Positions 3,634-20,734 of a stretch of DNA of 25,720 nt are shown in pieces. The position numbers and the translations under genes were made by a program. Each line of letters starts with the position of its first letter. Position 1 is the stretch's first letter. The notes under the pieces are model-generated. The model was not told where the DNA came from and searched no databases. It was given only the letters and a program-made list of their open reading frames with translations. Origin of the DNA: a virus; IMG/VR virus record IMGVR_UViG_3300027782_000328, positions 1 through 25,720 of that record; one strand, given 5' to 3'.

Positions 3634-4019
3634 TTTGTTTTAATTTTAGATTGTTTTTCTTTTAATGTTTTTTTGTTGTGACATGTTTCACATAACACTT
3701 GTAGGTTGTCTTGCTCACAGAACAGTCTCTCCACAAATTGTGGTAAGTCTGTTGATGTATTCAGACTTCCTGCAGGAATTATATGATCTACATTGATATT
3801 CTTTTCAGGATGCCATGTTTTGCACTTCTTACATTGGTATTCGTACTTCTGACGTTTGTTATCACCCTTGTATAGTCTACGTGCATTCATTTTGCATACT
3901 GATATGGGTTTCCACCATCTACTCTTCTGTCTCAAAGCACTTCTGATGAATGACCAAAACATTGCTTCGCTCATTGTACCATCACATCTTGTCTTTGGGA
4001 CCAACACTCTCTTTGCCAT
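3630..4019 (-). CDS. HNH endonuclease, 129 aa
   Basis: The C-terminal half carries a complete HNH (beta-beta-alpha metal) site: CKKC (63-66), VDHIIPAG (77-84) and LQVLCETCHNKKT (106-118), so the structural zinc cysteines and the catalytic His/Asn are present. The N-terminus has TMSEAMFWSFIRSALRQKSR, a lead-in common to phage HNH proteins. I chose MAKRV at 4019 as the start. An alternative ATG at 4046 would overlap the previous gene, and AT-rich leader sequence precedes 4019. It probably cuts DNA. It looks like a resident phage gene rather than a recent insertion, because it is tightly coupled to the genes downstream. Confidence 0.85.
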   Translation of the reverse strand: MAKRVLVPKTRCDGTMSEAMFWSFIRSALRQKSRWWKPISVCKMNARRLYKGDNKRQKYEYQCKKCKTWHPEKNINVDHIIPAGSLNTSTDLPQFVERLFCEQDNLQVLCETCHNKKTLKEKQSKIKTK

Positions 4020-4029
4020 GTAATTATAA

Positions 4030-4467
4030 TTAAGTTTCGTCCCCAAAATCCATAGAATAAGGGACGAATTGATTTAAATAGTCAATTGCTGATTTTAATA
4101 CTGATACATTATCATTAGCGTTACCAAGAAGTATATTACATTTAGCACATAATAAACCTCTTACTTTTCCACTTGTGTGACAATGATCTATATATAAACC
4201 ACCATGTTTTGATACTGTAGAATATTCTTTATTACATATTTTACATTTTTTATTTTGTAAAACATATAATTCTTCAACGTAGTTAGCATCTATACCATAA
4301 GTATTTATTGTATTTCTATTTTTACTTTTAGTATAATCATAAGTGTCTTTCTTTTGTTTATAATTACAGACCTTACAATAATGATGAACTCCTAATCTTC
4401 CATTTTTATCTTTTGTAAAGTTAGATAAATCTTTCTCTTCTTTACACTTACTACATATCTTATTCAT
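4030..4467 (-). CDS. Recombination endonuclease VII-type HNH nuclease, free-standing homing type
   Basis: The 145-aa protein opens with two CxxC pairs (C5/C8 and C31/C34, in KICSKCKEEKDLSNF and HHYCKVCNYK), a common N-terminal zinc module. The endonuclease VII core follows: CKICNKEY (75-82), YIDHCHTSGKVRG (92-104) and LLCAKCNILLGNA (105-117), with catalytic D94, H95 and N111. In T4 this family resolves branched DNA; free-standing copies in phages often behave as homing endonucleases. The start is MNKICSK at 4467; a longer frame from 4527 would run through the promoter-like box. It sits between rIIB and the resident HNH gene with its own leader, which suggests a mobile insertion. Confidence 0.85.
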   Translation of the reverse strand: MNKICSKCKEEKDLSNFTKDKNGRLGVHHYCKVCNYKQKKDTYDYTKSKNRNTINTYGIDANYVEELYVLQNKKCKICNKEYSTVSKHGGLYIDHCHTSGKVRGLLCAKCNILLGNANDNVSVLKSAIDYLNQFVPYSMDFGDET

Positions 4468-4486
4468 GACAATTAACTTTATAATA

Positions 4487-4494
4487 CAAAGATA
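4487..4494 (-). promoter_or_regulatory. Bacteroidetes-type -7 box (TATCTTTG) before the endonuclease VII gene
   Basis: The minus strand reads TATCTTTG 20 bases upstream of the ATG at 4467, a full match to the TAnnTTTG -7 box. A TTTTG lies 24 bases further upstream (about 4519-4523), longer than the N20 spacing of the better promoters here, so the -33 part is doubtful. The roughly 100-base gap between rIIB and this gene otherwise holds nothing that I recognise. Confidence 0.5.
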
Positions 4495-4569
4495 ACACAC
4501 TTTTGTGACATATTGGGACAAAAGCATGTTAACTTTATATTAAAAATCCGGGACAAAACTATAATTAAA

Positions 4570-11329: not shown

Positions 11330-12196
11330 TTAATAATCGTCACCATCATCAGAAATGTATGCATCAGAGGCAACTAAGTTATCATCTGGATTATAATCCT
11401 GAATTTCTTTGAATGTGTAATAGTCTTTACAACCATACTCACCTATAACGTTCACAACAAACTTCTCATGAGCTTTTAGATCACGAGGTTTCTTATTCTT
11501 AAGAGCATCTTGTGTCTTTTTGTTTCCATAATCAACAAGTCTGAATTGTTTCAAAGCATATCCACCTACAAACGCTTTGTTGTAGATTCCCTGATACTCT
11601 TTAGACTCTCCTTCTCTTTCTTTAACTATTACAGTGGCAAGAGCTACAACAGACTTAGCCCACTCACCATCGATTTGGTCTTTAATGTCTTTAACATTAC
11701 CTCTCATCAACTTCTTCCATTCTATTTGAAGAACAGTGTCTGCATCACGATAATCAAGATCAGCCAACCATACACGCATAAAGTTGTAAAGATCTTCTTC
11801 ACCTGTATATGCTATTCTGAAATCTCTTCCTTTGGTAAACCATTCAGCAAGATCATTTTCATCAGCTGCCCAAGAACACATACCAACAGAATTGATATAT
11901 TGATGCTTGGTACCATCTTTGTTTTCTCTTTCTTTGTCTTCTAAGAAGAAGCTCACCTTGTACTTTTCATCATTGGTCACTCTTTGTAACCAGAAATCAA
12001 CACGCAGATAGTTGTTTCCATCCTTAGTCTCACCTAAATACTCAGCAGCTTTGCTGTCTTCTTTAAGTTCCATTCCAAGAACATCTTTAAACTCTTCCAA
12101 CGTTGGATTGATTGCAATTACATTTGCTTCTAGTAATCCTGTTTTAAGAACTTTCTCGAATGAATCGTTAGTTCTTTTTTTTCCACCTATATTCAT
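11330..12196 (-). CDS. Single-stranded DNA-binding protein-like, with acidic C-terminal tail
   Basis: The 288-aa protein starts MNIGGKKRTNDSFEKVLKTG and ends in a short acidic tail, SDDGDDY, the hallmark by which SSB proteins contact partners. The body is strand-rich with many aromatics (NYLRVDFWLQRV, YKVSFFLEDKER, FKEIQDYNPDD), as expected for an OB-type fold. Its place between the recombination ATPase and the primase fits. I recognise no exact family motif, so the call rests on tail, size, opening and context, and on the crAss-like phages having a protein of this kind. A strong terminator follows the gene. Confidence 0.62.
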   Translation of the reverse strand: MNIGGKKRTNDSFEKVLKTGLLEANVIAINPTLEEFKDVLGMELKEDSKAAEYLGETKDGNNYLRVDFWLQRVTNDEKYKVSFFLEDKERENKDGTKHQYINSVGMCSWAADENDLAEWFTKGRDFRIAYTGEEDLYNFMRVWLADLDYRDADTVLQIEWKKLMRGNVKDIKDQIDGEWAKSVVALATVIVKEREGESKEYQGIYNKAFVGGYALKQFRLVDYGNKKTQDALKNKKPRDLKAHEKFVVNVIGEYGCKDYYTFKEIQDYNPDDNLVASDAYISDDGDDY

Positions 12197-12203
12197 AATT
12201 AAT

Positions 12204-12845
12204 TTATTTTAAATAATAAAATTTACTTTGTGTTTTTTGTTTTTTTACTCTTCCTTTAATGTAAGAACATATAGTGGGAACAGAAAGATTATGTTGTTTT
12301 GCAACATCAGTTAAACTTTCCCATATAATTTCTTCTCCTGATTGAGTAACTTCTTTTATTTTAATTTTTCTAGTACTTCCTTTACTGATGTTTTTTCTAT
12401 GCTCATCAGTTATTACTTGTAAAGCTCTTTTTTCTCTTATTAAAGCTTTAGTTTCTTCAGAGTGATTAAACTCTCCTTTTTTATGTCCTCTATTTTTACA
12501 TTCTGATAATGCTTTTTTACATTTTTCAGATATTATTCCTGTTTTACCTCCTTTCGTTATATTTAATAAGTTATTTCCATCCTGTATACATTTATCTATC
12601 CAATAAATTTCTTTTTCTTCCCATTCATCAGTAAGAACTTCTTCAAGAATACTTAACTCAGGTCTAATACCTAAATCAAGTAAACTTCTTATCCATTCTG
12701 CTTTTTCTTCATTTTTTCCTTTTTTCTTATTTTTGGCTTCACCTATATGTCCCCAAAATCTATTAAAAGGATTTGTAGTTTTTCCAACATATCTAACTTC
12801 TTTAGTAGTAGGGTCACATAAAGAATATATGTATACAGTTTTCAT
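12204..12845 (-). CDS. GIY-YIG homing endonuclease with a NUMOD-type DNA-binding end
   Basis: The N-terminal nuclease core is clear: VYIYSL (4-9), RYVGKT (18-23), an Arg at 29 and the conserved Glu in the EKEIYWID helix (77-84). The middle is basic (KGGKTG, SEETKALIREKR). The C-terminus carries SLTDVAKQHNLSVPTICSY, a NUMOD1-like helix-turn-helix. This layout is typical of free-standing homing endonucleases that spread into phages lacking the gene. I chose MKTVYIYSL at 12845 over the ATG at 12851, because the latter lies in the arm of an inverted repeat. It separates the SSB-like gene from the 81-aa gene. Confidence 0.88.
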   Translation of the reverse strand: MKTVYIYSLCDPTTKEVRYVGKTTNPFNRFWGHIGEAKNKKKGKNEEKAEWIRSLLDLGIRPELSILEEVLTDEWEEKEIYWIDKCIQDGNNLLNITKGGKTGIISEKCKKALSECKNRGHKKGEFNHSEETKALIREKRALQVITDEHRKNISKGSTRKIKIKEVTQSGEEIIWESLTDVAKQHNLSVPTICSYIKGRVKKQKTQSKFYYLK

Positions 12846-12850
12846 TATCA

Positions 12851-12906
12851 TAACAAGTAGTATTAAAAGTTTTTGTAAAGATATAAAAAAATAATACTAC
12901 TTGTTA
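12851..12906 (-). promoter_or_regulatory. 15-bp perfect inverted repeat over the start of the GIY-YIG gene
   Basis: The arms TAACAAGTAGTATTA (12851-12865) and its exact complement (12892-12906) flank a 26-base loop. The downstream arm reaches to within a few bases of the endonuclease ATG, so in a long transcript the hairpin would cover its leader. The loop holds TATCTTTA (12876-12883), close to the -7 box. A transcript begun there would contain only one arm and could not fold. No TTTG is seen at the -33 position, so promoter activity is uncertain. Confidence 0.7.
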
Positions 12907-12923: not shown

Positions 12924-13169
12924 TTATAATTCTTCTTCTTGTGAAAATACTTTTTCCCAAACCTTTCTAGTTTCAATTGGATTAACAATGTATTCATTTA
13001 ATGCAATCATTGCTTCTTTTACTGTTGTAAAAGGAATTTCTTTACATCCTACTGAAATAACACATCCTATATTTAAGAATTTAATTCCTATTTGAAAATC
13101 TCTAAGAGCTTCCATTCTTGATGGTTTCCATTGTTCTACTGGTTCTGGCATTGCTGATACTTCATTCAT
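12924..13169 (-). CDS. Conserved hypothetical phage protein, 81 aa
   Basis: The protein contains EALRDFQIGIKFLNIGCVIS, then VGCKEIPFTTVKEAMIALNEYI. I recognise the RDFxIGIxFLxxGCxxxVGCKEIPFTxxxEAM pattern from Bacteroidetes phages, function unknown. It is a small soluble alpha/beta protein with an acidic end (FSQEEEL). It follows the Sak4-like ATPase by about 15 bases, so a recombination or replication role is possible by position only. Confidence 0.78.
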   Translation of the reverse strand: MNEVSAMPEPVEQWKPSRMEALRDFQIGIKFLNIGCVISVGCKEIPFTTVKEAMIALNEYIVNPIETRKVWEKVFSQEEEL

Positions 13170-13184
13170 AATTTTAATTTTAAT

Positions 13185-13856
13185 TTAGTTATAATAATTA
13201 TTCACTGTGTCTACCACCAACTGTAAGTTGTTTGGTATTTTTGTTTCTGAAAACATCCCATCAGGACTTTTAGCTGGTATTTTTCTATAACGATTTGTTA
13301 CAAACTGATATGTAGCTGTACCATCTTTATTCTCTTCTACGAGTGTATAAAGACATACAGTTAACAATCCTTCTAATAACACTTGGTTATCGATTAGCTT
13401 ACCTGCAGTTTTGATTTTGTATCCCACTACATCTTGACCATCCATTATTTCTTCTGGGTGACTAAGATAGAATACAGTGATGTCATCTCTTAATTGTCTA
13501 GCTGTTCTAAATAGATCTACCATGTCTCTAGCCATAACACTAAATTTAGTAAATCCTACTTCTGTAGCTTTAGACACCATGTTGAATCCCATAATGTAAT
13601 TAGAGTCTTCAATGATGATGTTCTTAATGTGAGGAGCTTTCTCTGAGATGGTTTTTAACAAACGACTGATTTCATTTGCATCATCTATCTCTTTGTAATT
13701 TTTACTCTCTATGTTGTAAATCTTCTCACTACCCTTAAATGGGAGCTCCTTCTTTGCAACATTGATAATGTACGTTTCTTCTGGATTTAGGTGTTTGATT
13801 GCTGTACTCTTTCCAGTACCAGTCTGACCTACAATCCCTACTAATTTACTTGCCAT
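13185..13856 (-). CDS. Sak4-like AAA ATPase, single-strand annealing or recombination
   Basis: Walker A is GQTGTGKST (10-18) and Walker B is KNIIIEDS (78-85), followed by NYIMGFNMVSKATEVGF and KFSVMARDMVDLF. The body DDITVFYLSHPEE and YKIKTAGKLIDN fits the RecA-fold P-loop proteins of phages annotated as AAA_24 or Sak4. Such proteins help the SSB-like protein in annealing and recombination. At 223 aa it has the length expected for this minimal RecA-like group. It has its own promoter (13901-13932) and heads the group running down to the SSB-like gene. Confidence 0.78.
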   Translation of the reverse strand: MASKLVGIVGQTGTGKSTAIKHLNPEETYIINVAKKELPFKGSEKIYNIESKNYKEIDDANEISRLLKTISEKAPHIKNIIIEDSNYIMGFNMVSKATEVGFTKFSVMARDMVDLFRTARQLRDDITVFYLSHPEEIMDGQDVVGYKIKTAGKLIDNQVLLEGLLTVCLYTLVEENKDGTATYQFVTNRYRKIPAKSPDGMFSETKIPNNLQLVVDTVNNYYN

Positions 13857-13900: not shown

Positions 13901-13932
13901 TAAAGATACGAATAATAATTTTAATTATCAAA
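13901..13932 (-). promoter_or_regulatory. Promoter of the Sak4-like ATPase gene
   Basis: On the minus strand TTTG (13929-13932) is separated by exactly 20 bases from TATCTTTA (13901-13908), giving the Bacteroidetes -33/-7 layout with one mismatch in the last base. The -33 box overlaps the TGA of the upstream helicase gene. The predicted transcript start near 13894 gives a leader of about 40 bases before the ATG at 13856. This lies in one of the few real intergenic gaps of the module. Confidence 0.7.
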
Positions 13933-17483: not shown

Positions 17484-19441
17484 TAGAAAAGATTTAATTG
17501 GTTAGGAATAAAGACTGTTGTAATTCTTTTACCTTTAGTCTGGATCTTTGTGATTATTCTGTTGGCTTTCTCAATATAATAATCATAGTTGACATTGTCA
17601 ACAGCACTGTTCTTAGGTAGGTAATTACAAACTTTACACACCCATTCACCTGCTTCTATCTGACTGATAGCTGCAGCTCTAGTTTGACATTCAGCATTCT
17701 TTATCTTGAATATTTTATCACCAGTGTTAGATACATAATATCTAATCAGTTTATCATACACTGTCACTTCTCCTGTAGATCTATTAGTTCCTTCATAATG
17801 GAAACTTCTAGTAGCTTTCTGTCTTAAACAAAAATCATATAGATCACTATGATTTCTAATAGTCTCAGCAACAGGAATATTATTAACAAAATAATTTTCC
17901 AAAGCAATGGGAACAATCCTTGCACTCTTGTTTTTATGCAATTCAAAGTCAGTAAGGAAATCACCTTTCTTTTTAATTTCTCCATTGGTCATAATTGCTA
18001 AATAATCATTTACAGTACTAAAGATAATCTTGGAATAGTCAGTTCTCTCTAACTCATATTGAGTTATGCTACACCACCATTCATTAAGCTCATACATTAA
18101 AGGAATAAGGTCTTTCTTAATTCTAATAGTTACACCATCTGTATTTGCAGAGATCACATGTATGCCATTGGTTTCATATTTTTCAATAAGCATCATCAAG
18201 CTAAGCTCACCAGTTATAGTGGTGAACATAGTGAGTTGCCTATCATATATCCAATTTTGCATATCAGATGACTTACCATACACAGAGTTAACTGCAAGTT
18301 TAAGTGCTCCAACAATTCCTTTAATCTTCTTATCGCTTTTTGCAAGGGGTTTAAGTTCCAATCTCTTATCAAACATCTGTTTGTATCCCCTAAGGAATTC
18401 TTTTCCTAAATGAGCAGGAAATTTACCATTGTTGATAATAATAGCTGGATAATAAGAACTAACATCCCAATCGATTATCTCGTACTCTTCATCAGCTTCA
18501 AACACCTTAGGTGCATTCTCTGTATGAAGACCACCTTTCATAAAAGAATATACATTCCCATAGAAATGTAATTCTTCTTTGAAATCATCTTGAAGACCCA
18601 ATTGAGCCTTCTTTATTCTCTTTAAGAAATCACTAAGTTCTGTAGTCTCAAAAACTACGTATTTAGCAATGCAATCTTTTAAGTGTATATTCTTTCTGAA
18701 AAACCCTTTTCGAGGAAGTTCCTTATACTCAATACCTTTCTCTTGGCAATAGAACTTCTTGATTATTTCATCACCTATCTTACTGTCTGAATAGTTCAAA
18801 CAAGAAATACCAAACTCAGCTTCAATATCTTGTCTCAGCTCTATTTGGTTGTTTCCTTTGTATAAGGGATGATCAGTGTCACCCATGGTGACTTTATAAA
18901 ACTCATAAGTTGCATCCACATCATTGTAACAATAGTCTATAGTGAGATCTATCTCTTCTTTAGTCATGTTTGTTTTGCTATGATGTATAGGCATTTCTTC
19001 AATGTTCTCTAAGTCCATTTCAAACTCTAGTCTTTTTAGAGAGACCATCCTATTTTTATTATTGTAGTGCATCAAAGCAAATAAGTCTATTATTTTAAAA
19101 CTTAAATCACTTTCTCTATATTTTGGAAAAACTTCATAATTTGCATCGTGTATTGTATCTTGAGCAACTTGTGCAATCTTTGCACATATTTCAAGACCAG
19201 ACAATTCATGCCATTTATCATAATTCCTAAGAATATGCTCAATTACTTGGCTATCAAATCTTAATCCATTATATGTTACAAAGTAATGATCGTTCTTTTC
19301 TTCAAAATATCTTGCCATACGATCTATTGTATTTTTCCATCTACTAACTTCAAACTTACGATACTTATTAGTTTGAGGGTCATAACAAACGCATAAAAAG
19401 TATTCTGCCATTGTTTCTATATCTGTTACTATAACTTTCAT
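17483..19441 (-). CDS. Family B DNA polymerase
   Basis: The 652-aa protein has a 3'-5' exonuclease domain with Exo I DIET (7-10), Exo II YNGLRFDSQV (57-66) and Exo III YCYNDVDATY (170-179). The polymerase follows with motif A DWDVSSYYPAII (324-335), motif B KLAVNSVYGK (381-390) and motif C SANTDGV (431-437). Motif C reads N-T-D where family B enzymes usually read D-T-D. It is shorter than most cellular family B polymerases and matches the compact phage type. It copies the genome and proofreads, with helicase and primase genes on the same strand. The start at 19441 overlaps the GIY-YIG gene stop by four bases. Confidence 0.9.
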   Translation of the reverse strand: MKVIVTDIETMAEYFLCVCYDPQTNKYRKFEVSRWKNTIDRMARYFEEKNDHYFVTYNGLRFDSQVIEHILRNYDKWHELSGLEICAKIAQVAQDTIHDANYEVFPKYRESDLSFKIIDLFALMHYNNKNRMVSLKRLEFEMDLENIEEMPIHHSKTNMTKEEIDLTIDYCYNDVDATYEFYKVTMGDTDHPLYKGNNQIELRQDIEAEFGISCLNYSDSKIGDEIIKKFYCQEKGIEYKELPRKGFFRKNIHLKDCIAKYVVFETTELSDFLKRIKKAQLGLQDDFKEELHFYGNVYSFMKGGLHTENAPKVFEADEEYEIIDWDVSSYYPAIIINNGKFPAHLGKEFLRGYKQMFDKRLELKPLAKSDKKIKGIVGALKLAVNSVYGKSSDMQNWIYDRQLTMFTTITGELSLMMLIEKYETNGIHVISANTDGVTIRIKKDLIPLMYELNEWWCSITQYELERTDYSKIIFSTVNDYLAIMTNGEIKKKGDFLTDFELHKNKSARIVPIALENYFVNNIPVAETIRNHSDLYDFCLRQKATRSFHYEGTNRSTGEVTVYDKLIRYYVSNTGDKIFKIKNAECQTRAAAISQIEAGEWVCKVCNYLPKNSAVDNVNYDYYIEKANRIITKIQTKGKRITTVFIPNQLNLF

Positions 19442-20187
19442 CTTTGTATTTTTAATGTTCTTAAATATGTGTTTCTTCCTATAGAAGATGTTATTGTTGC
19501 AATATGGACATTTAATAAATCTGCTAAAGGTCTAGAGTTAATAGTTCCTATAAATCTATGAAAACAATCATGTATTGTATATTTACCACTATTAACTTTG
19601 ATTTGATCAAATATATTATTCCAATAAGCTTTTACATCTTCTACTGATTCATTTTCATCAAGAAATATAAACTTACTAGATTCTGAATCAATTAAATTCT
19701 TTTTAAAAAATTTTACGTTCATCTTTCTATGAACATTAGGAGCTACAATATTGAAATGTTCAGCACACTTATATAAATCAGTAAAGCTTTGATAGAACTC
19801 TCCATAGATAGTATAAACCATTACTTTTCTTTTAGGTGCAGAATTACTCATTCTTACTCTAGTTTCATCAGAAACTGCACGCTTTCCTTCAGGGCATGTA
19901 GGATCAATATTATATCCATGTTTTCTATTATGGGTATCTAACATATTGCACCAATAGTTTTCTTGAGAATAGATATGTTCAGGGTTACACTCTTCAAGTG
20001 TTTCAAATATAAAGTTTTGTTCTCCATGTTTATTAAAAGAACTTTGTAGATGGGTATTATGATGTATACCTGCTCTAAGTTTCCATTTATGCATACATAA
20101 TCTATTATATAGATCTATAGTTGCACCAATGTAACTTTTATTTGTAACTAAGTTTTGAATAATGTAAACTCCTGAACTCTTTCTCAT
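19438..20187 (-). CDS. GIY-YIG homing endonuclease directly upstream of the DNA polymerase
   Basis: The nuclease core reads SGVYIIQN (5-12), KSYIGAT (17-23), R29 and the conserved Glu in the SQENYW helix (74-79), all required residues of the GIY-YIG fold. The C-terminal 150 residues have a NUMOD-like part with FTDLYKCAEHFNI, KSY-type repeats and RPLADLLNVHIATITSS, a likely helix-turn-helix. At 249 aa it is a typical free-standing homing endonuclease. It has its own promoter (20209-20240), and its stop overlaps the polymerase ATG, so polymerase translation may depend on transcripts that begin here. Confidence 0.88.
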   Translation of the reverse strand: MRKSSGVYIIQNLVTNKSYIGATIDLYNRLCMHKWKLRAGIHHNTHLQSSFNKHGEQNFIFETLEECNPEHIYSQENYWCNMLDTHNRKHGYNIDPTCPEGKRAVSDETRVRMSNSAPKRKVMVYTIYGEFYQSFTDLYKCAEHFNIVAPNVHRKMNVKFFKKNLIDSESSKFIFLDENESVEDVKAYWNNIFDQIKVNSGKYTIHDCFHRFIGTINSRPLADLLNVHIATITSSIGRNTYLRTLKIQR

Positions 20188-20208: not shown

Positions 20209-20240
20209 CAAATATAAACATCATATTTGAAACTACCAAA
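20209..20240 (-). promoter_or_regulatory. Strong Bacteroidetes-type promoter for GIY-YIG and DNA polymerase
   Basis: On the minus strand TTTG (20237-20240), an exact 20-base spacer and TATATTTG (20209-20216) give a complete match to the Bacteroidetes -33/-7 promoter. The predicted start near 20202 leaves a leader of about 15 bases before the ATG at 20187. It sits in a 72-base gap and is the best promoter in the window. A host-type sigma factor would be expected to read it. Confidence 0.78.
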
Positions 20241-20259: not shown

Positions 20260-20592
20260 TTATATCTTATTTTTTAAAAAGTTATTTATTTGGTCAAATA
20301 ACCAACCTGTTAAATATGCTTCAGGTTCATCATTGAATCTATCTAACTCAATTCCTTTGTCTTGATAGATATAGTTCTTTAAGTGCACTATTTCATGGGC
20401 TATTATAGTTCCATCACTATATTCAAATGCCATAATATACTCACTAAACTTATCAGGCACTCTCATTGTAATAGCACCATAATCTGACAAAGATTTTGTC
20501 CCATATTTTTTCTCAACATAAGACAAGTCTTTATCTAATATGATAGTTAAATCACACTCATAAATGGGTATTCTAATTGTTTTCTTTCTCAT
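20260..20592 (-). CDS. HExxH putative metalloprotease-like phage protein, 110 aa
   Basis: The motif TIIAHEIVHLKNYI (62-75) is a classic zinc-binding HExxH site (HEIVH, 66-70). FNDEPEAYLTGWLFDQI (86-102) follows and supplies a Glu that could be the third ligand, as in gluzincin-like proteins. I recognise this AHExVHLKNxxxxxxGIELDxxNDEPEAYL pattern as a common Bacteroidetes phage protein. Its target is unknown. The C-terminus (NNFLKNKI) and stop fall in a degenerate copy of the junction repeat: a two-base difference reads past the usual TAA and gives NKI*. Confidence 0.78.
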   Translation of the reverse strand: MRKKTIRIPIYECDLTIILDKDLSYVEKKYGTKSLSDYGAITMRVPDKFSEYIMAFEYSDGTIIAHEIVHLKNYIYQDKGIELDRFNDEPEAYLTGWLFDQINNFLKNKI

Positions 20593-20605
20593 ATCTTATT
20601 TGGTT

Positions 20606-20734
20606 TTAAATTAAAAATATTAAAAAAATTGTAAACCAAATAATTATTGGTTCTAATAACCCACCAAACCAAAACCTGTCGTAATATTCATAACACTCAT
20701 TTAACTCTTTTTTGATTTTTTTTAATATTTTCAT
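20606..20734 (-). CDS. 42-aa tail-anchored membrane microprotein
   Basis: The frame encodes MKILKKIKKELNECYEYYDR, then FWFGGLLEPIIIWFTIFLIF and LI. A basic, soluble N-terminal half is followed by one hydrophobic segment of about 19 residues (24-42), so it looks like a tail-anchored protein. The start is set by a good junction repeat (20732-20751). I know no family. It fills what would otherwise be a 145-base gap. Confidence 0.65.
   Translation of the reverse strand: MKILKKIKKELNECYEYYDRFWFGGLLEPIIIWFTIFLIFLI

Follow-up and report, generated by a model that had tools for sequence, protein, structure and literature searches.

A GIY-YIG homing endonuclease gene in a crAss-like phage is preceded by a hairpin that is conserved and carried with the endonuclease cassette, and folding predictions indicate that this hairpin likely masks the translation start. 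We consider it probable, on balance, that the hairpin silences translation on read-through RNA and that an internal promoter releases it, an arrangement resembling that of T4 I-TevI and reached by convergence.

The window, i.e. the whole stretch of 25,720 nt analysed here, has its likely genes on the minus strand. It is a crAss-like phage fragment encoding PolB, DnaB, a helicase, Sak4, a 288-aa protein and a primase, and its replication-gene order and the proteins in common place it in Crassvirales. The gene order is partly common to Crassvirales cr128_1, where helicase, Sak4, small genes, a gene of about 300 aa and primase follow one another as in the window, and the slot of the 288-aa gene between Sak4 and primase is also present. 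Sak4 identity to such Crassvirales phages is about 40%. The endonuclease gene (12204..12845, minus strand) encodes 213 aa from the conserved ATG, or 215 aa from 12851. Its product matches PHROG 314, homing endonuclease (E 1.2e-17), and scores 22.1 bits against Pfam GIY-YIG, slightly below the 22.6 cut-off. Upstream lie an 81-aa gene (12924..13169, minus strand), optional among relatives, and, within the endonuclease's transcription unit, the gene for a Sak4-like ssDNA annealing protein (13185..13856, minus strand; PHROG 2872, E 2.6e-53). The conserved 288-aa gene (11330..12196, minus strand) follows downstream; a full promoter motif belonging to it was not found. The cassette has no close match among annotated phages, annotated phage records contain no close relatives by DNA and three weak ones by protein, the genome contigs searched yielded no relatives, and further pattern scans gave no additional family members. 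Relatives of the endonuclease were taken from viral contigs, the closest of which provide six distinct leaders in three branches (window and L001; L003; L072, L172 and L173).

On the minus strand, the hairpin consists of the 5' arm TAACAAGTAGTATTA (12892..12906), the 26-nt loop TTTTTTTATATCTTTACAAAAACTTT (12866..12891) and the 3' arm TAATACTACTTGTTA (12851..12865), directly followed by TGATAATGAAAACTG. The perfect 15-bp repeat around a 26-base loop before the GIY-YIG start, as reported in the initial annotation, is confirmed and exceeds in length all others of its kind in the window; with its flanks it extends to 19 nt at 95%. It is also the sole Watson-Crick stem of at least 12 bp with a loop of at most 45 nt in the window, and the longest stem across 60 Markov simulations was 14 bp. 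Its RNA fold has a predicted energy of -19.3 kcal/mol (z -4.6), which none of 200 shuffles equalled, and a search of Rfam with the hairpin gave no match. The ATG was said to come right after the hairpin. The first ATG, at 12851, indeed shares its A with the last base of the stem. The start conserved among relatives, whose proteins begin MKTVYIYSL, is instead the ATG at 12845, 6 nt beyond the stem.

The effect of the stem on the start region (-20..+12) was predicted by folding the leader from the two alternative 5' ends. As had been proposed, the start is predicted to be closed on read-through RNA and open on RNA begun four bases past the loop box, with opening costs of 17.8 and 2.5 kcal/mol, respectively. 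Shuffling the upstream sequence gave 5.6 ± 1.8 kcal/mol, and 0 of 200 leader shuffles reached 17.8. The endonuclease start (z 7.3) is more occluded than any other in a set of 318 genes drawn from the window and two near-complete relatives. Occlusion is strong in L072 as well (15.9 kcal/mol, z 3.5), while L003, L172 and L173 each lie weakly above their shuffles (z 1.8, 1.8 and 0.7). Bacteroidetes lack Shine-Dalgarno sites, and in F. johnsoniae structure around the start reduces translation initiation (PMC6847099).

In the mechanism we propose, the hairpin would act as an RNA element borne by the mobile endonuclease cassette. With the cassette inside a Sak4–(81-aa)–288-aa–primase unit, the RNA covering it would mostly be read-through from the Sak4 promoter. 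The presumed source of this RNA is a Bacteroidetes-type promoter, TTG-N20-TATCTTTA, upstream of Sak4 (13901..13931, minus strand); as this is the nearest upstream full promoter motif of the transcription unit, read-through is expected. On such RNA the hairpin would sit over the bases immediately preceding the endonuclease start and block initiation, which in Bacteroidetes, without Shine-Dalgarno sites, is favoured by an unstructured start. RNA from a promoter inside the hairpin would begin at about 12871, exclude the 5' arm and thereby offer an open 26-nt leader that permits translation. The translational block, the activity of the promoter and the timing of expression are inferred.

The internal promoter is putative and, from its sequence, plausible. 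Of 930 leaders, 38 contain the octamer TATCTTTA, against 10 for the reverse strand and 3 for shuffled sequence. The phages here show host-type promoters, the longer motif TTTG-N18-21-TAnnTTTG being present in 22 of 930 leaders, against 1 for the reverse strand and 2 for shuffled sequence. The -7-like box noticed earlier in the loop, TATCTTTA (12876..12883, minus strand), holds up as a plausible Bacteroidetes element, with a predicted +1 at about 12871 by the spacing given in PMC6847099. It is less than canonical, as the final G of the -7 box, nearly invariant in Flavobacterium johnsoniae (PMC6847099), is replaced by A, and no -33 TTG was found at the proper spacing from the loop box in the window or L001. 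From the L072/L172/L173 branch the canonical loop box is absent. These features would suit a hairpin that silences the endonuclease on read-through RNA with no internal promoter, expression then being kept low or arising from transient opening or upstream ribosomes; the stem is kept in six leaders and the loop box is not, and the window box lacks its -33 partner. We regard this reading as rather unlikely, since in L003 the promoter TTTG-N19-TATATTTA is complete and its -7 box falls inside the loop, in L072, L172 and L173 a TTG-N19/20-TACTTTTA stops four bases short of the ATG and lies partly within the 3' arm, and the promoter motif is usual on endonuclease genes here. The candidate promoter of L072, L172 and L173 would yield a leaderless RNA. 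In every branch, control by an internal promoter would thus have a candidate positioned so that its own RNA cannot fold the hairpin.

The hairpin is linked to the cassette. It precedes the gene in 6/6 distinct leaders, and no relative with the endonuclease was found to lack the repeat, which is accompanied by compensatory changes. In contigs that include both neighbours, the gene next downstream of the cassette is the 288-aa gene, whereas the one before it differs, being the 81-aa gene or Sak4. The endonuclease is an insertion missing from the same site of close relatives, where the junction between Sak4 and the 288-aa gene is present with and without the cassette. In about 57 distinct endonuclease-free relatives, Sak4 or the small gene is followed merely by a short AT-rich spacer, mostly 13–37 nt. 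The hairpin, whose presence there would have counted against the earlier proposal, is absent from all these empty sites, the spacer being too short for it. As the hairpin is found at endonuclease-bearing sites and has no room at empty ones, the cassette brings both arms with it. Absence of the repeat from the empty sites also led us to reject a palindromic homing target as its explanation.

The same comparison bears on whether the hairpin is a transcription terminator, or an element for RNA processing or stability of the neighbouring genes. Hairpins are common at such places, and that of an endonuclease-like gene in L035 resembles the terminator found before primase. Here the element is missing in endonuclease-free relatives, the stem is A/T rich and Rfam has no match; the terminator reading was rejected since, on the coding strand, the 3' arm is not followed by a U run, and this group of functions as a whole seems improbable.

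The stem also shows covariation. In the alignment of the six leaders, 83% of stem cells are paired against 75% in shuffled alignments (1/500), and 7 cells are changed on both sides of the stem against 3.5 (3/500). Both pairing and covariation fell when the partner was shifted by 1–3 columns, slide 0 being the best register, and the double changes include C-G/A-U, U-A/G-C and A-U/U-A. We consider this covariation for RNA pairing, which comprises six rows and three branches only, good but not overwhelming. It also bears on a DNA operator at which the endonuclease or another protein would repress the promoter, as I-TevI does. The palindrome overlaps a promoter-like box, and I-TevI is an autorepressor, with its relatives thought to act likewise (PMC2988022). 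Between relatives whose proteins are 66% identical, however, the arms differ yet stay complementary, which fits RNA pairing and not a fixed binding site, and makes an operator decidedly improbable. A chance repeat without function, although the genome is AT-rich and 14-bp stems arise in simulations, is highly improbable given the compensatory changes and the conservation over divergent relatives.

The conserved, start-covering hairpin on read-through RNA that characterizes I-TevI-like control is found here by prediction together with covariation. In T4, the leader hairpins of I-TevI, I-TevII and I-TevIII have internal middle/late promoters (PMC2988022). They fold only on RNA initiated upstream and mask the start (PMC2988022), as predicted for the window, and the promoter is sited to give the endonuclease a transcript of its own that is unable to fold the hairpin, a role for which the window has a candidate. 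The T4 hairpins differ in masking a Shine-Dalgarno site and in belonging to intron-encoded genes, whereas the window gene is free-standing, its candidate promoter is of the Bacteroidetes type and a Shine-Dalgarno site is not expected. It also stands ahead of the 288-aa replication-region gene, unlike the three T4 genes. T4 segB and Aeh1 mobE are closer in being free-standing phage homing endonuclease genes among other phage genes with a hairpin at the start (PMC2988022); the host phylum is different, and the window layout is known from sequence alone. By analogy, the window leader would follow the same logic as the T4 and Aeh1 leaders, with no sequence link claimed, and the T4-like layout apparently evolved separately here. 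For the proposed I-TevI-like control, stem conservation, linkage and the folding prediction are borne out; the loop box is imperfect in the window and absent from the loop in the L072/L172/L173 branch. An earlier report of such control in crAss-like phages was not found in the open-access literature. Should this hold, hairpin gating of homing endonucleases as in T4 would have an independent origin in an unrelated and abundant order of phages, whose hosts initiate translation in the absence of Shine-Dalgarno sequences. Silencing a selfish nuclease inside an essential operon would then be a problem that comes up repeatedly and receives a similar answer each time. The layout also has a signature that is simple to compute, and it lends itself to a clean test by reporter.

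In a wider comparison, 14 of 20 GIY-YIG leaders carried the full promoter motif, against 39 of 555 other genes. Nesting of a promoter box within a start hairpin was seen for 7 of 17 endonuclease-type genes and 3 of 301 others (p 3.5e-8), by a score defined after examples were seen, so that the new-data test is the run on nine fresh genomes only. With the score unchanged, the loosest, preset cut-off gave 5/18 versus 9/971 there (p 2e-6), the endonucleases being Pfam-defined and the genomes related to the first set, hence new but not fully independent data. The next cut-off gave 1/18 versus 3/971 (p 0.07), and a score of at least 11 loses most cases. The folding-energy test was not significant in the nine fresh genomes (p 0.06), nor was a family-level test on five GIY-YIG families (p 0.15); upheld in neither, an energy-based claim covering endonuclease genes in general was dropped. 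Individual cases include a GIY-YIG gene in L364, where 15-bp arms flank TACATTTG, and one of HNH type in L365, whose loop contains TAAATTTG. A high-scoring gene at L035:5459, of NUMOD4-HNH type as read from sequence, was set aside because its hairpin is like the terminator that precedes primase. We read this as a layout that recurs in particular endonuclease families and not as a rule for all. That unrelated endonuclease families of crAss-like phages repeatedly evolved a promoter within or just after a start-masking hairpin, as a general convergent rule for selfish endonucleases in essential operons of non-Shine-Dalgarno hosts, is a possibility we hold tentatively and with some doubt.

Other leaders of the window have comparable features, all on the minus strand. 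A hairpin at 4036-4068 precedes an HNH gene starting at 4019, with a family match in 11/11 genomes scanned. Its arms are wholly different among relatives and still paired (GTCCC/GGGAC, GTCGC/GCGAC and CCCAGGG/CCCTGGG), with double changes at 8/10 consensus pairs, and its loop often ends with a TAnnTTTG-like box, partly because TTTG pairs with CAAA. At 4494-4531, a 13-bp hairpin (TAACATGCTTTTG / CAAAAGTGTGTTA) lies upstream of the likely start of an endonuclease VII-like gene (4030-4527) and recurs in L387 with changed arms and pairing kept. An extended promoter, TTTGGTAG-N-TAnnTTT[GA], is located at 20209-20239 before a second GIY-YIG gene (19438-20187). In 1.26 Mb of local loci, all its ORF-leading matches precede endonuclease-like genes; in 20 relatives it has 17 matches versus 0 in the control, before a 487-aa protein, small proteins, an HNH gene and others, and it possibly represents a late class. 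At 20596-20643, the hairpin TTATTTGGTTT / AAACCAAATAA surrounds TTG-N17-TATTTTTA before a 110-aa gene (20260-20592) with an HEIVH motif, a non-endonuclease with the promoter-in-hairpin layout whose 3' arm is altered in L380. Genes of about 187 aa in L401, L412 and L423 (MADLKLDIIVVPTY and similar) have very strongly occluded starts (z 3.8-8.3).
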